Part shown: piece by piece, positions 14,005 to 31,734 of the stretch | How the letters are laid out: each line of letters starts with the position of its first letter | Numbering within the stretch: position 1 is the stretch's first letter | Source: an uncultured Lachnospiraceae bacterium | GTDB lineage: Bacteria; Bacillota; Clostridia; Lachnospirales; Lachnospiraceae | NCBI GenBank assembly: GCA_944381535.1 | Contig: CALWLN010000135.1 | Span: forward strand, 1-38,137 | DNA: 38,137 nt | Direction: 5' to 3' | Notes under the pieces: model-generated | Database searches by the model: none | Told to the model about the DNA's origin: nothing | What the model saw: only the letters and a program-made list of their open reading frames with translations | Made by a program: the position numbers and the translations under genes

Positions 14005-14010
14005 AAAACA

Positions 14011-14293
14011 CAGCGAGGAAGAGGAACAGTACAGATGGAAAGGTCCCCCAGAGAGGAAATCATCGGTGGGAGATTTCTGGCCCGAACATCTGGAACCCAC
14101 CTTGGAGCATCATGGGAGGACCATGACGTAGCCCCGGCGTTAACGGGAAATGAGTGAATGTGAAGAACCGCACAATTTTCCCGGAAGGTTTTGAGTGAAG
14201 GAAACACAGGGGATGCGGCGCAGCTTTTCACATTAATAAGGGTGGTACCGCCGAGTCTTCGGTCCCTTTAGAGAGGGATAGAAGGCTTTTTTC
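14011..14293 (+). promoter_or_regulatory. T-box riboswitch (proline tRNA) controlling proS
   Basis: The antiterminator T-box core AAGGGTGGTACCGCC is at 14238-14252; its TGGT bulge would pair with an ACCA tRNA end. Stem I contains an apical helix (GAAATC/GATTTC flanking a GGTGGGA loop, about 14055-14078). The candidate specifier is CCC, a proline codon, at 14096-14098 in the usual GGAA-NNN-ACC setting. The terminator helix (GTCTTCGGTCCCT with AGGGATAGAAGGC) ends in a T-rich run at 14287-14292. Uncharged tRNA-Pro should bind and prevent termination, raising ProRS synthesis. Confidence 0.92.
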
Positions 14294-14333: not shown

Positions 14334-15773
14334 ATGGCAAAGGACAAAAAATTAGTGGAAGCCATCACATCCATGGACACGGATTTTGCCCAGTGGTACA
14401 CGGATGTGGTAAAAAAAGCGGAGTTGATTGACTACACCAGCGTCAAGGGCTGCATGGCCATTAAGCCTGCCGGCTACGCCATCTGGGAAAATATCCAGAA
14501 GGAGCTGGACCGCCGGTTCAAGGAGACCGGGGTGGAAAATGTGTATATGCCCATGTTCATCCCCGAGAGCCTTTTGCAGAAGGAGAAGGACCATGTGGAG
14601 GGCTTTGCTCCCGAGGTGGCCTGGGTGACCCAGGGAGGGTTAAATCCCCTGCAGGAGCGCATGTGTGTGCGCCCCACCTCCGAGACGCTGTTCTGCGATT
14701 TCTATGCCAACGACATCCAGTCTTACCGGGATCTGCCCAGGGTGTATAACCAGTGGTGCTCCGTGGTGCGCTGGGAGAAGGAGACCCGGCCCTTCCTGCG
14801 TTCCCGGGAATTTCTGTGGCAGGAGGGCCACACCGCCCATGCCACCGCAGAGGAAGCGGAGGAGCGCACCCTGCAGATGCTGCATCTCTATGCGGATTTC
14901 TGCGAGGATTTTCTGGCCATCCCCGTAGTGCGGGGCCGTAAGACCGACAAGGAAAAATTCGCGGGGGCTGAGGCCACCTATACCATCGAGGCTCTTATGC
15001 ACGACGGCAAGGCGCTGCAGTCCGGTACCAGCCATAACTTCGGGGACGGCTTTGCCAAAGCCTTCGGCATTCAGTACACCGATAAGGAAAATAAGCTGCA
15101 GTATGTGCACCAGACCTCCTGGGGTATGACCACCCGCCTGATCGGTGCCATCATCATGGTGCACGGGGACGACTCCGGACTGGTACTGCCTCCCAAGGTG
15201 GCTCCCGTCCAGGTGATGGTGATCCCCATCCAGCAGCGGAAGGAAGGCGTCCTGGAGAAGGCCGCCGAGATGAAGGAGGCGCTGGCGGCTGCAGGGCTTC
15301 GGGTGAAGCTGGACGACACCGACAAGAGCCCCGGCTGGAAATTCGCCGAGCAGGAAATGCGCGGAATCCCTCTCCGCATCGAGCTGGGGCCCAAGGATAT
15401 TGAGAACGGAACATGCGTGATGGTCCGCCGGGACACCCGGGAGAAGATTGAGGTGTCTCTGGCGGAAGCCCCTGCAAAGGCAGCGGAGCTGATGGACGTC
15501 ATCCAGAAGGATATGTTTGAGCGCGCCAGGGCCCACCGGGATTCCCATATCACGGATGTGACAAGCTACGGGGCCTTCAAGGACGCTGTGGAGCATAAGC
15601 CCGGCTTTATCCGCGCCATGTGGTGCGGGGACGAGGCCTGTGAAATCAAGATCAAGGAGGATACTACGGCCACTTCCCGCTGTATGCCCTTTGCCCAGGA
15701 GCAGATCTCCGATGTGTGCGTGTGCTGCGGAAAGCCCGCCCACAAGCTGGTGTACTGGGGAAAAGCATATTGA
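14334..15773 (+). CDS. proS: Prolyl-tRNA synthetase, type 3 (ProS)
   Basis: 479 residues, the size of the short archaeal/eukaryotic-like bacterial ProRS lacking the INS editing domain. The class II motifs are readable: [48 protein letters not shown] and the motif 3 region ([26 protein letters not shown]). The anticodon-binding domain starts at about 285. The C-terminal domain carries cysteines at CGDEACE and VCVCCGKP, and the protein ends with tyrosine (WGKAY), as in this subfamily. It charges tRNA-Pro in the cytoplasm. Regulation is by the proline-specific T-box immediately upstream. The ATG at 14334 follows AAGGAG. Confidence 0.97.
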
Positions 15774-15782
15774 TTTATGACC

Positions 15783-15816
15783 GGCAGGCGCGCTTCCGTG
15801 CGCCTGTCACTTTTTT
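15783..15816 (+). terminator. Rho-independent terminator of proS
   Basis: GGCAGGCGC (15783-15791) pairs with GCGCCTGTC (15800-15808), followed closely by six Ts (15811-15816). Confidence 0.88.
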
Positions 15817-15817
15817 C

Positions 15818-15846
15818 GTGACGTTTCCCCAATCCTATGGTATAAT
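15818..15846 (+). promoter_or_regulatory. Promoter of the mtmB-like/permease operon
   Basis: A perfect TATAAT at 15841-15846; the best -35 at 17 bases is GTGACG (15818-15823), a partial match. The weak -35 leaves room for an activator. The leader to the ATG at 15913 is about 60 bases. Confidence 0.6.
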
Positions 15847-15912: not shown

Positions 15913-17289
15913 ATGACGGTGAAAGAATATCTGGAGCTTTGCTCCCGCAGTCATACAGGAACCAAGGTCACCAAAGATGACTGGGACATGGATTATATTA
16001 TTGAGGAGGTACGGGACCTGGTGGAATCGTACGGTTTTGAGTGGGACAAGCAGGTTCTGATCCCGGAAGATGACAAGCTCCTGGATGATATGTTCCGTGC
16101 CGCAAAAACACTGATCTTAAAAACCGGTGTCTACAACATGACCACAGGCCGCATTATTTCCTTCACGGAGGAAGAGATTGAGGACGGTCTTCGCAATATG
16201 AAAAAGGAGCTGGTCATGGGCGAGGGAAAGGATGCCTACACACTGGCAGCTCGGGGAATTGAAGATGCTAGAGAGCCGGCTGTCTGGGCGGGGAATCCGG
16301 GATGTCCCACGCCGGAAAGCATTTATTACGCCAATGTCCTAAGCTCTGCAAAAGAGCCGGTGGTGGATCTCTTAACCTGCGGGTCGCTGGTGGATGTGGA
16401 CGGATTTCCGGTGAAAAGCGGAGAACCTACGGAGCTTGTGGCGGTAAGGAAAGAGCTGGAGTATCTCCACAGAGCCCTGGCAGAAGTAGGAAGACCGGGA
16501 ATGGGCCTTCTGGCGGCGGAAAGCGCAGTGACGGAGATGGGCGATCTGTCAGCCTCCTTTGAAAGACGTCTGCGTCCCTGTGATTCCCACCTGATCGCCA
16601 TGTTCAATGAACTGATCATTGACAACGGCAATCTGGTGCGGGCCGCAAATTCGCTGGACTATGGCGTGAAAAATGCCTCCCTGGCCTGTACGATGGTGGG
16701 TGGGCTTGCGGGGGACGCGCCGGGGGCGACGATGGTGATGATGGCATCCATAATGGCGGCAAACCTGATCTGCCTGGCGGATTACCATCTGTGCCATCCC
16801 ATCCACATTTCCGATGTGGCTACTACGGCCAGAGGATGTCTGTGGCTTCAGTCCGTGCTCTGCCAGTCCTTTGCGAAAAATGCCCCTGCGATCATTGTCT
16901 GTGATCTGTGGCCCGCAAGCGGCGCGTTGACCAAGGAGCTGCTGTATGAGGTTGCCGCCAATGCCATTGTAGTAACCGTATCCGGCGGACATCTGGAAGG
17001 AGTCGGGTCCGCCAACGGAAATGAGCCCAACGGAACCGGGCTGGAGGTCCGCCTGATGGGAGAAGTGGGAAAAGCGGTGGCGCGTCAGGGCATGACAAGA
17101 AAAAAAGCCAATGAGATTGTGCTGAAGCTCCTTGCGAAGTATGAGCATGTGTTTGGCATGGAGGACAAAAACAAGGGAAAACGGTTTGACGAGGCCTACG
17201 ATATGGAAACCATTACGCCAGTGCCCCAATGGCAGGCAATGTACGATGAGGTAAAAGCAGAATTATCCGAAATGGGAATTCAGTTTTAA
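15913..17289 (+). CDS. MtmB-family (monomethylamine methyltransferase) homologue without pyrrolysine
   Basis: 458 residues, the same length I recall for the monomethylamine:corrinoid methyltransferase MtmB of Methanosarcina. Shared blocks in order are: TKDDWD near the N-terminus, GRPGMG (193-198), a conserved FNEL element, GGLAG, HPIHI, VGSANG, TGLEVRLMGEV and YDMETITP. In MtmB the pyrrolysine follows RPGMGV; here the sequence reads RPGMGLLAAE, with Leu200 encoded by CTG (16510-16512), so the position is a sense codon and there is no in-frame amber. By analogy with non-pyrrolysine MttB relatives that demethylate quaternary amines, it may be a methyltransferase with a different substrate. No corrinoid protein or reactivase gene is nearby. 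It is followed after 19 bases by a permease in the same operon. ATG at 15913 after AAAGGAGGA. Confidence 0.85.
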   Translation: MTVKEYLELCSRSHTGTKVTKDDWDMDYIIEEVRDLVESYGFEWDKQVLIPEDDKLLDDMFRAAKTLILKTGVYNMTTGRIISFTEEEIEDGLRNMKKELVMGEGKDAYTLAARGIEDAREPAVWAGNPGCPTPESIYYANVLSSAKEPVVDLLTCGSLVDVDGFPVKSGEPTELVAVRKELEYLHRALAEVGRPGMGLLAAESAVTEMGDLSASFERRLRPCDSHLIAMFNELIIDNGNLVRAANSLDYGVKNASLACTMVGGLAGDAPGATMVMMASIMAANLICLADYHLCHPIHISDVATTARGCLWLQSVLCQSFAKNAPAIIVCDLWPASGALTKELLYEVAANAIVVTVSGGHLEGVGSANGNEPNGTGLEVRLMGEVGKAVARQGMTRKKANEIVLKLLAKYEHVFGMEDKNKGKRFDEAYDMETITPVPQWQAMYDEVKAELSEMGIQF

Positions 17290-28679: not shown

Positions 28680-29852
28680 ATGAGAAAGAAACACGCGATC
28701 GTTGCGGCAGGAATGACCATATGTATGGCGCTCACAGCCTTTGCGGGCTGCGGGCCTGCCGGGATTAAGAGCAGCACGGGAGAAACCCAGCAGAACAGCC
28801 AGAATAACGCGTCGGCAGACGGCACGGAGGGCACAACCGTATCCTTTGAGGAAAATCTGTTGGATCCGGAGAATCCGGTGACGGTGACCTTCTACAGCTA
28901 TAGCCTCTACTATCCCAATATGAAGGACGGTATGGAGCATCTGATACAGGTGTTCAACGACACTGTGGGTAAGGAGAAGGGCGTTATCGTGGAAGGGGTT
29001 CCCGACGATCTGTCAAAATATAAGACGGACATTCAGGCGGGCAACCAGGTGGATGTGATCCAGCACATCTTTGCCACCCTGGACGCGTCCAAGAAATCCC
29101 TGGGAATCCAGGCTTTTGAGGATGTATTTCCGGAGGAGGAGCCTAAGGCGCAGTTTGAGGGGATTCCCGAAAATGCTTTAAGCCTGGGCGTCATTGACGG
29201 CAAGACCTACGGCATGGCCTTCACCTTAAGTACCCCGATCCTATATATCAACGGCACGCTCTTTGAGCAGGCAGGACTTGATCCCAACGAGCCTCCCACC
29301 ACCTGGGAGGAGATGCTGGAAATGGCCAAGACCATCAAGGAGAAAACCGGGGTGGACGGCTTCGGCCTGGGGCCGGACAACGGCTGGGTAACGGAGGGAA
29401 TCGTCTACACGGCGGGCTCCGACATGGTAAATGAGGACAAGACCGAGGCAGTGTTTGCTACGGAAGAGACTGCGCAGGCCTTTGAGCTGTGGAAAAGCTT
29501 CTATACGGAGGGCTGTGCGGCCAAAGGCGCGGACACGGAGCTGTCCCAGCAGTTTTCCTCGGGCAAGCTGGCCATGCATATCCAGTCCTCTGCGGCTCTG
29601 GCGGGATATGTCAGCGCCTCTGCGTCCTTGTTCATCAACTCCTGGAATGACTATATGTGGCCGTCCCTTTTGTCCAACCGGATAGAGGACGCGCCCCTGC
29701 AGATCGGCCTGAAAATGTTCGTGAGCTCGGATGTGAATATGTGGGGATCCCTGATGGCGGCTACCACGGTATCCTGTATCCCGATACTGGCCTTTTATCT
29801 GGTTATGCAGAAAAATATTGTAAATTCGTTTATGAAATGGGGAATTAAATAA
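28680..29852 (+). CDS. Chimera of a family-1 (UgpB-like) binding protein and a MalG/UgpE-type permease tail
   Basis: 390 residues. Residues 1-24 are a lipoprotein signal (lipobox FAGC, Cys24). Residues about 50-310 are a typical ABC sugar/glycerol-3-phosphate binding protein (TFYSYSLYYPNMKDGMEHL, GKTYGMAFTLSTPILYINGT, TTWEEMLEMAKTIKEKTG). At about residue 311 (near 29611) the sequence switches to FINSWNDYMWPSLLSN and then MWGSLMAATTVSCIPILAFY to a lysine-ended tail, the last two helices of a MalG-type permease, lacking the EAA loop. Binding protein and permease are separate genes in all such systems I know, so an in-frame deletion of about two genes is likely. The product cannot serve as either part in full and is probably non-functional. 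ATG at 28680 is preceded by GAAGGAGGAG. Confidence 0.88.
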   Translation: MRKKHAIVAAGMTICMALTAFAGCGPAGIKSSTGETQQNSQNNASADGTEGTTVSFEENLLDPENPVTVTFYSYSLYYPNMKDGMEHLIQVFNDTVGKEKGVIVEGVPDDLSKYKTDIQAGNQVDVIQHIFATLDASKKSLGIQAFEDVFPEEEPKAQFEGIPENALSLGVIDGKTYGMAFTLSTPILYINGTLFEQAGLDPNEPPTTWEEMLEMAKTIKEKTGVDGFGLGPDNGWVTEGIVYTAGSDMVNEDKTEAVFATEETAQAFELWKSFYTEGCAAKGADTELSQQFSSGKLAMHIQSSAALAGYVSASASLFINSWNDYMWPSLLSNRIEDAPLQIGLKMFVSSDVNMWGSLMAATTVSCIPILAFYLVMQKNIVNSFMKWGIK

Positions 29853-30698: not shown

Positions 30699-30780
30699 TA
30701 CAAACAGAGTCGGGCAAGGGATACCGGCCGAGAAATAAAAAACAAGTAAGAAAAAGATGAGAGAAAAGAGGAAGAAAAGT

Positions 30781-31734
30781 ATGAAGAAATTTATTGTAAG
30801 CCTGTTGATTGCCGCTATGGCAGCTACCGCGCTTGTGGGCTGCGGCTCCGGTGACAACAACAATGCCGGCACGAACGACAACACAAACGAAGAGAGCAAC
30901 GCTAACACAGAAGACGAGGCCAATGCCGGGACCGAGGATGAGGGAACGGACGAGAGCACAGGAAACGGCGTGAGCGGACTGATCTCTGTTGTATCCAGAG
31001 AGGATGGTTCCGGAACCAGAGGAGCTTTCACAGAGCTGTTTGGCATTCTTGAGGAGGACGCGGACGGAAATGAAGTGGATATGACCACCCAGGAAGCGAC
31101 CATCGTAACCAGTACCGAAGTGGTTCTGACCAATGTGGCCGGCGACCCCAACGCCATCGGTTATGTATCTCTGGGAGCGCTGAACGATACCGTGAAGGCT
31201 GTAAAGATTAACGGCGTAGAGGCAACGGTGGAGAACATTCAGAACGGAAGCTACGAGATTTCCAGACCCTTCAACATTGCGACCAACGGCGAGCCCACCG
31301 GAGTAGCGGCTGATTTCATCAACTTTATCATGAGCGAGGAAGGCCAGGCGGTGGTGTCTGAGGATTACATCCAGGCAGCAGAAGATCCGCAGCCCTTTGA
31401 GAGCACCATGGAAGCGGGTAAGATTACCGTAGGCGGCTCCTCTTCCGTATCTCCCTTAATGCAGAAGCTGATTGAGGCTTATCAGGCCATCAACACCAAT
31501 GCGGAGATCGATCTGCAGACCAGCGATTCTTCTACAGGCCTTCAGGAAGTTATGGACGGTACCTCCGACATCGGTATGGCTTCCAGAGAATTGAAGGACA
31601 GCGAATCCTCCTTAACCGCAACGGTAATCGCTATCGACGGAATCGCGGTAATCGTAAATAATGAGAACACCGTGGACGATATGACGCCCGAGGAAGTAAA
31701 AGCCATCTTCACAGGTGAAACAACCACCTGGTAA
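30781..31734 (+). CDS. pstS: Phosphate ABC transporter binding lipoprotein PstS, circularly permuted
   Basis: 317 residues from the ATG at 30781 (AGAGGAAG upstream), MKK signal with lipobox LVGC (Cys21) and an Asn/Glu/Asp-rich linker (25-63). The order of PstS blocks is swapped. The segment normally in the second half comes first: VVSREDGSGTRGAF (72-80 for SREDGSGTR), AGDPNAIGYVSLG and SRPFNI. The block normally at the N-terminus follows from about 213: GKITVGGSSSVSPL, TSDIGMASRELK, AIDGIAVIVNNENT, ending at IFTGETTTW. In ordinary PstS, IFTGxxxxW leads into VVSRExGSGTR, so the permutation point is exactly there. It should still bind phosphate outside the membrane and hand it to PstCA. First gene of pstSCAB-phoU. 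Confidence 0.9.
   Translation: MKKFIVSLLIAAMAATALVGCGSGDNNNAGTNDNTNEESNANTEDEANAGTEDEGTDESTGNGVSGLISVVSREDGSGTRGAFTELFGILEEDADGNEVDMTTQEATIVTSTEVVLTNVAGDPNAIGYVSLGALNDTVKAVKINGVEATVENIQNGSYEISRPFNIATNGEPTGVAADFINFIMSEEGQAVVSEDYIQAAEDPQPFESTMEAGKITVGGSSSVSPLMQKLIEAYQAINTNAEIDLQTSDSSTGLQEVMDGTSDIGMASRELKDSESSLTATVIAIDGIAVIVNNENTVDDMTPEEVKAIFTGETTTW

Follow-up and report, generated by a model that had tools for sequence, protein, structure and literature searches.

The window analysed here, a stretch of 38,137 bases with a GC content of 50%, belongs to a 4.3 Mb genome that is assembled in 241 contigs and rated 93% complete. It carries an MtmB-family gene that runs from ATG to TAA and encodes 458 residues, followed after 19 nt by the gene of a membrane permease (Table 1), and the two are probably read as one transcript. 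The ProRS gene lies upstream and is itself preceded by a T-box leader (RF00230, 105 bits), an ordinary form of regulation. The hairpin predicted after ProRS would separate the methyltransferase gene from it, and the promoter-like element between the two genes agrees with the consensus at 10 of 12 positions, with a TG before the -10 element.

Table 1. Positions of the features discussed, in window coordinates
Feature	Position	Strand	Basis
T-box leader	14007-14270	+	RF00230
ProRS gene	14334-15773		
Terminator-like hairpin	15783..15808	+	consensus match only
Sigma-70-like promoter	15818..15846	+	consensus match only
Non-Pyl MtmB-family (PF05369) methyltransferase-like protein	15913..17289	+	profile, PDB alignment, model
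Codon 200, CTG (Leu), in the column of the Pyl-MtmB amber codon	16510..16512	+	alignment, codon reading
Membrane permease, 521 aa	17309..18874	+	
Solute-binding protein	28680-29852	+	SBP_bac_8
PstS-like phosphate-binding protein	30757-31734	+	

The permease received no Pfam or NCBIfam assignment and no meaningful PDB sequence match. Its AlphaFold model is of low confidence (pLDDT 49), and a Foldseek search with this poor model returned SLC26, BicA, a NAT transporter and UraA, none of them with E below 0.001, a result that suggests a general fold of the UraA/SLC26 type. Elsewhere in the window, the PstS-like gene opens a run that by eye resembles pstSCAB-phoU. The two halves of its product are apparently swapped relative to several solved PstS proteins: residues 74-205 resemble the C-terminal half of several of these and residues 223-325 the N-terminal half in others, and the same order of halves is found in 4h1x. 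The solute-binding protein matches SBP_bac_8 at residues 105-310, its last ~70 residues resemble by eye the end of a sugar ABC permease, and it may have arisen by a deletion fusion or through collapse of the assembly.

The methyltransferase-like protein matched Pfam PF05369 (MtmB) over the full length of the profile and well above the curated cut-off (322.5 bits, E 5.9e-96, cut-off 25; residues 8-456 on positions 5-450 of 450), which places it in the family to which the sequence-only reading had assigned it; none of the NCBIfam models matched. In a PDB sequence search (E<=0.001), both distinct sequences that were matched are M. barkeri MtmB1 (1l2q/1nth, E 4e-67; 1tv2, E 5.3e-67; residues 9-458 on 12-458). 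The AlphaFold2 model (pLDDT 94.9, pTM 0.94) has the MtmB fold, with 1nth as its best Foldseek match (TM 0.95/0.96, 31% identity). The protein thus resembles M. barkeri MtmB in length, TIM-barrel fold, PF05369 membership, sequence (31–32% identity) and the GRPGMG stretch. No second PF05369 match was found in the source genome.

The same reading had placed a leucine where MtmB has pyrrolysine (Pyl), and this is borne out by the PDB alignment, in which Leu200 is paired with the X (Pyl) of 1l2q, Pyl202 in M. barkeri MtmB. In the model, which superposes on 1nth, Leu200 lies in strand 199-201. There is no in-frame TAG anywhere in the gene, and no amber codon occurs at codon 200 in the 19 other sequences of its clade. 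An in-frame amber codon or a sequencing slip at this position can be ruled out, since leucine is found in 20/20 clade sequences.

Residues of the pyrrolysine site and relatives of the clade

We aligned 56 sequences, from which fragments L099 and L100 and the L006/L007 duplicates had been left out beforehand (L and G numbers denote loci and genomes). In the column of the Pyl position, the clade of the window gene has leucine throughout, the 8 genomic Pyl genes have TAG, the PDB sequence MtmB1 has Pyl, and in the 27 remaining non-Pyl sequences the residue is G, T, M, I, K, V, C, Y or A. Four residues that we take to be those of the Pyl site in the MtmB structure are E229, E259, Q333 and Y335. 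In all 18 full-length clade rows the first three are replaced by Leu, Leu and Asp, and Y335 is Trp in 15 rows and Tyr in 3. Unlike a Pyl-dependent monomethylamine (MMA) methyltransferase, the window protein has no amber codon at the position of Pyl202, lacks E229, E259 and Q333, and has no adjacent corrinoid gene, an absence that extends to its clade.

Conversely, the clade has a set of invariant residues that none of the 8 Pyl rows compared shares, among them W125, N128, C156, C259, C294, H295, C330, D331, H360 and E362. Most of these lie on or just after barrel strands, as judged from the secondary structure of the model. Furthermore, 30 columns, among them R194, G196, G263, G264 and G267, do not vary among 11 clade members and 9 non-Pyl members that are corrinoid-linked, indicating that the core of the family has been kept.

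For the tree, the partial sequences L022, L052 and L082 were left out and the root was set at the midpoint. The 18 full-length clade rows form a group with support of 100/100, as do the Pyl rows. The clade joins the corrinoid-linked rows L108 and L111 in a group (100/99) that stands next to the Pyl clade (85/88 with this midpoint root); several rows, including L108 and L111, have long branches, and such joins may be false. By gene, the nearest relatives belong to Lachnospiraceae and Eubacteriaceae and are mostly metagenome-assembled. With the window genome counted in each case, PF05369 was found in 6 of 61 near relatives (G026 and all but one of the 6 genomes in the window's genus), in 4 of 392 genomes sampled from the order and in 28 of 398 from the phylum.

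The sequence-only reading was aware of no MtmB-family member that had been characterised, a statement that is now out of date. According to the available part of a recent report, MtqB of Methanococcoides methylutens, a non-Pyl homologue of MtmB, removes methyl groups from tetramethylammonium and choline and is, as that report itself states, the first non-Pyl member for which a function has been demonstrated; the remaining non-Pyl members in its tree of 1,061 MtmB sequences have no known function (Kashyap et al., Front Microbiol, March 2026, PMC13044021). The same text describes a conserved Met and Cys near the ligand of MtqB. Compared by this description only, MtqB (strain Q3c) shares with the window protein its membership among the non-Pyl MtmB proteins and differs from the window clade in being archaeal, in having MtqC at a neighbouring locus tag and in showing no purine link in the part of PMC13044021 available. 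The non-Pyl enzymes of the MttB superfamily (MtgB, MtpB, MtcB, MtyB) likewise lack Pyl and are described there as having a proposed substrate that resembles the Pyl adduct. They belong to a different family, PF06253, and our model matches MtgB and MttB only weakly in structure (TM ~0.5). A further non-Pyl protein of the MtmB superfamily is strongly induced on dichloromethane (PMC9768040, as far as its available text goes). CdmB, which acts on chloromethane, was considered as a relative and rejected because the accessible part of PMC13222342 assigns it to the UroD family.

Purine-type genes beside the clade

Neighbouring genes were compared among 20 clade loci, 25 other non-Pyl loci (27 genes), 9 Pyl-MtmB loci and 20 arbitrary stretches, the last being 12 kb long, drawn from 15 genomes with an MtmB-family gene and hand-picked at round positions rather than chosen at random. 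A count of open reading frames within 6 kb missed the BMP gene of L017 and the adenine deaminase genes of L016 and L018 and had no Apt reference; because it was incomplete for the clade, clade neighbours were counted by one tblastn rule (E<=1e-20) over the whole fetched stretches. By this rule, with reference proteins taken from the same loci, categories chosen after viewing them, loci that are related rather than independent, and several stretches ending at contig ends, a BMP-type (purine-base-type) ABC importer was found at 10 of the 20 clade loci and the permease at 6 (including the window), never both. Adenine deaminase (ADE) was found at 5 and adenine phosphoribosyltransferase (Apt) at 2, again never together. 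The corresponding numbers for importer, permease, ADE and Apt are 3, 1, 0 and 0 at the 25 other non-Pyl loci, 0/9 each at Pyl loci, and 0, 0, 1 (at 27% identity) and 0 in the 20 arbitrary stretches. ADE or Apt thus occurs at 7/20 clade loci versus 1/20 arbitrary stretches (Fisher test, 0.04).

The order of these genes is ADE-ABC-BMP-MtmB in L016 and L018, APT-ABC-BMP-MtmB in L012 and L052, and ADE-MtmB-permease in L104 and L105, and in L021 ADE faces the permease. A UbiD-type decarboxylase gene (L012:745-2214) adjoins the operon of L012. All 5 ADE proteins scored above the TIGR01178 cut-off and both Apt proteins above that of TIGR01090, and the linked deaminases that were tested gave their best PDB score with the adenine deaminase 3nqb. 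Two adenine-consuming enzymes stand in for each other, which points to adenine as the product. The nearest PDB entries of the BMP protein of L016 are AtzT (6pi5) and 3s99; according to the available part of PMC6834077, AtzT binds guanine with a KD of 0.11 uM and adenine with one of 2.5 uM, and adenine has been modelled in 3s99. Several loci count against the pattern. All four neighbours are missing from L022 and from L009-L011, which belong to the window's own genus; L022 adjoins what appears by eye to be a spermidine/putrescine-type ABC system. The window and L106 have the permease and no other of the four, and the Bilifractor-type loci L019 and L020, the latter from the isolate Bilifractor porci, have BMP and neither ADE nor Apt. 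The upstream side is cut short in L013, L014, L015 and L017.

BMP importers are broad as a class, and the purine genes might simply be neighbours of a shared importer, with the enzyme acting as a corrinoid-dependent demethylase of another N-methyl heterocycle such as N-methylnicotinate, N-methylhydantoin, a methylated pyrimidine or a B6-like compound. The importer of L016 does resemble B6 transporter models below their cut-offs (BMP 61/400 bits, ATPase 477/670 bits), and the UbiD-type gene of L012 would also fit. However, two different adenine-specific enzymes share the place upstream of the importer, and ADE adjoins the enzyme gene in importer-free loci as well, so we regard this explanation as unlikely.

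The deaminases offer another reading. Methylamine is a co-product of N6-methyladenine deamination, and a linked deaminase might release it from N6-methyladenine for an MtmB-like enzyme that demethylates methylamine without pyrrolysine. Two members of that deaminase superfamily, YerA and Bh0637, convert N6-methyladenine to hypoxanthine (PMC12133300, available part), and slight methylamine activity is reported for MtqB in what is accessible of PMC13044021. Nevertheless, the linked deaminases lie above the TIGR01178 cut-off and, among those tested, match 3nqb best (YerA is in the PDB as its C-terminal part only); Apt, which would yield no methylamine, replaces the deaminase in two loci; and the Pyl-site residues E229, E259 and Q333 are all replaced. 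We consider this reading very improbable.

For the wider family, the best BLAST match within 6 kb of each of the 27 other non-Pyl genes was scored. These surroundings contain 8-oxoguanine-deaminase-type amidohydrolases (11), PucR-type regulators (7), molybdenum subunits of XDH (5) and BMP (7). Any purine-type gene lies near 17 of the 27, as compared with 0/9 Pyl genes and 3/20 arbitrary stretches, and 10 of the 27 have no such neighbour. In the clade the figure is 16/20 (15 by the 6-kb count, plus L017). The Fisher values, 9e-5 for the clade against the arbitrary stretches and 0.001 for other non-Pyl against Pyl genes, overstate the case, because the loci are related and the categories were chosen after looking. 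When 8 of the amidohydrolases were compared with NCBIfam, those of L107, L109, L124 and L132 exceeded the PRK08203 cut-off, those of L114 and L131 fell just below it, that of L126 was truncated by a contig end, and that of L116 was closer to SsnA, below the SsnA cut-off. XdhA of L114 scored 1212 bits in NCBIfam, and the Pfam PucR domain was found in 5/5 candidates tested (L110, L111, L118, L119, L124). L126 has an NCS1 purine/cytosine-type permease, and L125 unites a corrinoid gene, BMP and a relative of the window permease that is 59% identical and truncated at the contig end. The purine signature thus often extends beyond the window clade to other non-Pyl MtmB genes of Bacillota. The arbitrary stretches with purine-type genes are L172 and L182, with XDH-type genes by chance, and L177 (G605:C26:10000-22000), whose contig also carries two non-Pyl MtmB genes, at least ~40 kb away from its BMP- and ADE-like genes.

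Corrinoid proteins and the methyl acceptor

Corrinoid matches near the gene (tblastn, E<=1e-6) were found at 25/25 other non-Pyl loci, 9/9 Pyl loci, 1/20 arbitrary stretches and 1/20 clade loci, and the sole clade match, in L021, falls in the B12 domain of a MetH-like protein encoded 6.5 kb from the gene. The search was made by tblastn in addition to open frames because the filter for the latter can drop overlapped genes; by both, a stand-alone corrinoid gene was found at 0/20 clade loci, several of which are cut by contig ends.

This absence bears on two alternatives. MtqB is the only non-Pyl MtmB protein we found with a demonstrated activity (PMC13044021, available part), and by family the default reading would be a corrinoid-dependent methyltransferase of a quaternary amine such as choline, tetramethylammonium or a betaine. 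No choline, betaine or TMA gene was noticed by eye beside the clade genes that were read, the clade neighbours counted are of the purine type, and the stand-alone corrinoid gene is missing from the clade loci, all of which makes such a substrate distinctly unlikely. The second alternative takes the lost corrinoid gene at face value: the barrel would no longer transfer methyl groups and would serve as some other purine enzyme that works without a corrinoid. The contrast with the other non-Pyl and Pyl loci speaks for it, as do the clade-invariant Cys, His and Asp on barrel strands. On the other hand, a stand-alone corrinoid protein is kept in nearly all genomes with the enzyme, one form of it tracks the enzyme, and the 30 invariant columns are shared with corrinoid-linked members. 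We judge a corrinoid-free function to be improbable.

The evidence on this last point comes from the genomes as a whole. That the window genome has no corrinoid partner can be ruled out, since a candidate lies on another of its contigs, C120, which encodes corrinoidA (211 aa; L047:10112-10747), a RACo/RamA-type activase (576 aa; L047:8273-10003) that corrinoidA adjoins, and corrinoidB (235 aa). A corrinoid protein and a reductive activase are thus present, and we infer that they serve the enzyme. CorrinoidA scores 201 bits against TIGR02370 (cut-off 215). No methyltransferase gene was recognised alongside the trio, and the nearest URO-D match is ~17 kb off. A stand-alone corrinoid frame (an open frame under 400 aa) occurs in 19/20 genomes with the enzyme, the miss being the 1.6 Mb genome G822, and in 7/35 relatives outside the genus without it. 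At >=75% identity, corrinoidA is present in 8 of 61 relatives, namely 6/6 with the enzyme and 2/55 without; G002, of the same genus, and G037 have the corrinoidA-RACo pair and no enzyme that was found. Of the 20 genomes with the enzyme, 12 have the pair together and 8 have no intact pair at one place. In G004 its members are split between contigs, in G197, G211, G218 and G821 its place is taken by URO-D-type operons, and the two Bilifractor-type genomes have a corrinoid protein (52% identical) with RACo. A PocR-type AraC regulator gene (L153:8377-9627, Pfam) lies beside the corrinoidA-RACo pair, and a like regulator is recognised in L154, L155 and L167 by position and equal length only.

As to the acceptor of the methyl group, the window genome gave no match to MtrH, and no dedicated pterin-binding methyltransferase was found in it; its PF00809 matches are a dihydropteroate synthase, as read from sequence, and an 858-aa MetH-like frame. 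In L156 (Bilifractor), a match to PRK07535, a THF:corrinoid methyltransferase model, lies beside the corrinoid and RACo genes. URO-D-family matches number 17 in the window genome and 24 in its relative G005, and the 17 products of the window genome could use the same corrinoid proteins. MttB was not found in the window genome; matches to it are present in G026, which has the enzyme.

A proposed demethylase of N-methylated purines

The family, the fold, Leu200, the residues specific to the clade, the linkage and the co-occurrence are observations. We propose that the window gene encodes a putative non-Pyl, corrinoid-dependent MtmB-family demethylase that converts an N-methylated purine base, most likely an N-methyladenine, to adenine. 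The substrate, the role of the pocket and the corrinoid pairing are its predicted parts, and we hold the proposal as a whole to be evenly poised between right and wrong.

The methylated base would enter through the neighbouring permease in the window, or through the PnrA/BMP-type ABC importer in other clade members, the specificity of both being predicted. Its binding site would be the open end of the TIM barrel, where in MtmB the pyrroline ring of Pyl is accommodated. Leu200 would vacate this space, and W125, C156, C259, C294, H295, C330, D331, H360 and E362 may shape the new pocket. Co(I) of the stand-alone corrinoid protein encoded elsewhere, presumably kept reduced by the RACo/RamA-type activase, would then accept the methyl group. 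The adenine set free would be taken up by adenine deaminase or Apt, which are linked in 7/20 clade loci and not in the window, and the methyl group would pass on to an acceptor. The substrate would supply a ring of its own, which may be why leucine has replaced Pyl. On general chemical grounds, N6-methyladenine would be attractive for the likeness between its CH3-NH, carried by a ring carbon, and the methylamine-pyrrolysine adduct, and 1-methyladenine for its cation, which should be the better leaving group.

The known relatives of the linked genes in other clade loci are adenine deaminase (TIGR01178), Apt of purine salvage and AtzT-type proteins, and we know of none among these that removes a methyl group from a ring nitrogen. 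Mimicry of the Pyl adduct by the substrate has already been proposed for MtgB and MtqB, as the available text of PMC13044021 states; its extension to a purine ring is new here. In the literature searched, which gave partial coverage, no purine substrate was found for an MtmB-family protein. Non-Pyl MtmB proteins are thus already known, one of them with a demonstrated function, and it is the purine link that appears new. The suggestion of the sequence-only reading that the gene may define an undescribed activity holds up as a possibility, given neighbours that point to purines, compounds on which neither MtqB nor MtmB acts; the activity itself is a prediction.

A broader version of the proposal, which we put forward tentatively and think somewhat more probably wrong than right, is that most non-Pyl MtmB proteins of Bacillota are O2-independent, cobalamin-dependent demethylases of methylated nucleobases, in which the purine ring would occupy the place of the pyrroline ring of pyrrolysine. 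The window clade would act on N6- or 1-methyladenine and others on methylguanines or methylxanthines. If true, these enzymes would be an anaerobic counterpart of the oxidative nucleobase demethylases, and gut bacteria could use them to recycle methylated purines from RNA, DNA and the diet. If the substrate is a purine, a sizeable part of the MtmB family would gain a function, the substrate's own ring would explain what replaces pyrrolysine, and oxygen-free nucleobase demethylation would be added to the biology of gut anaerobes.
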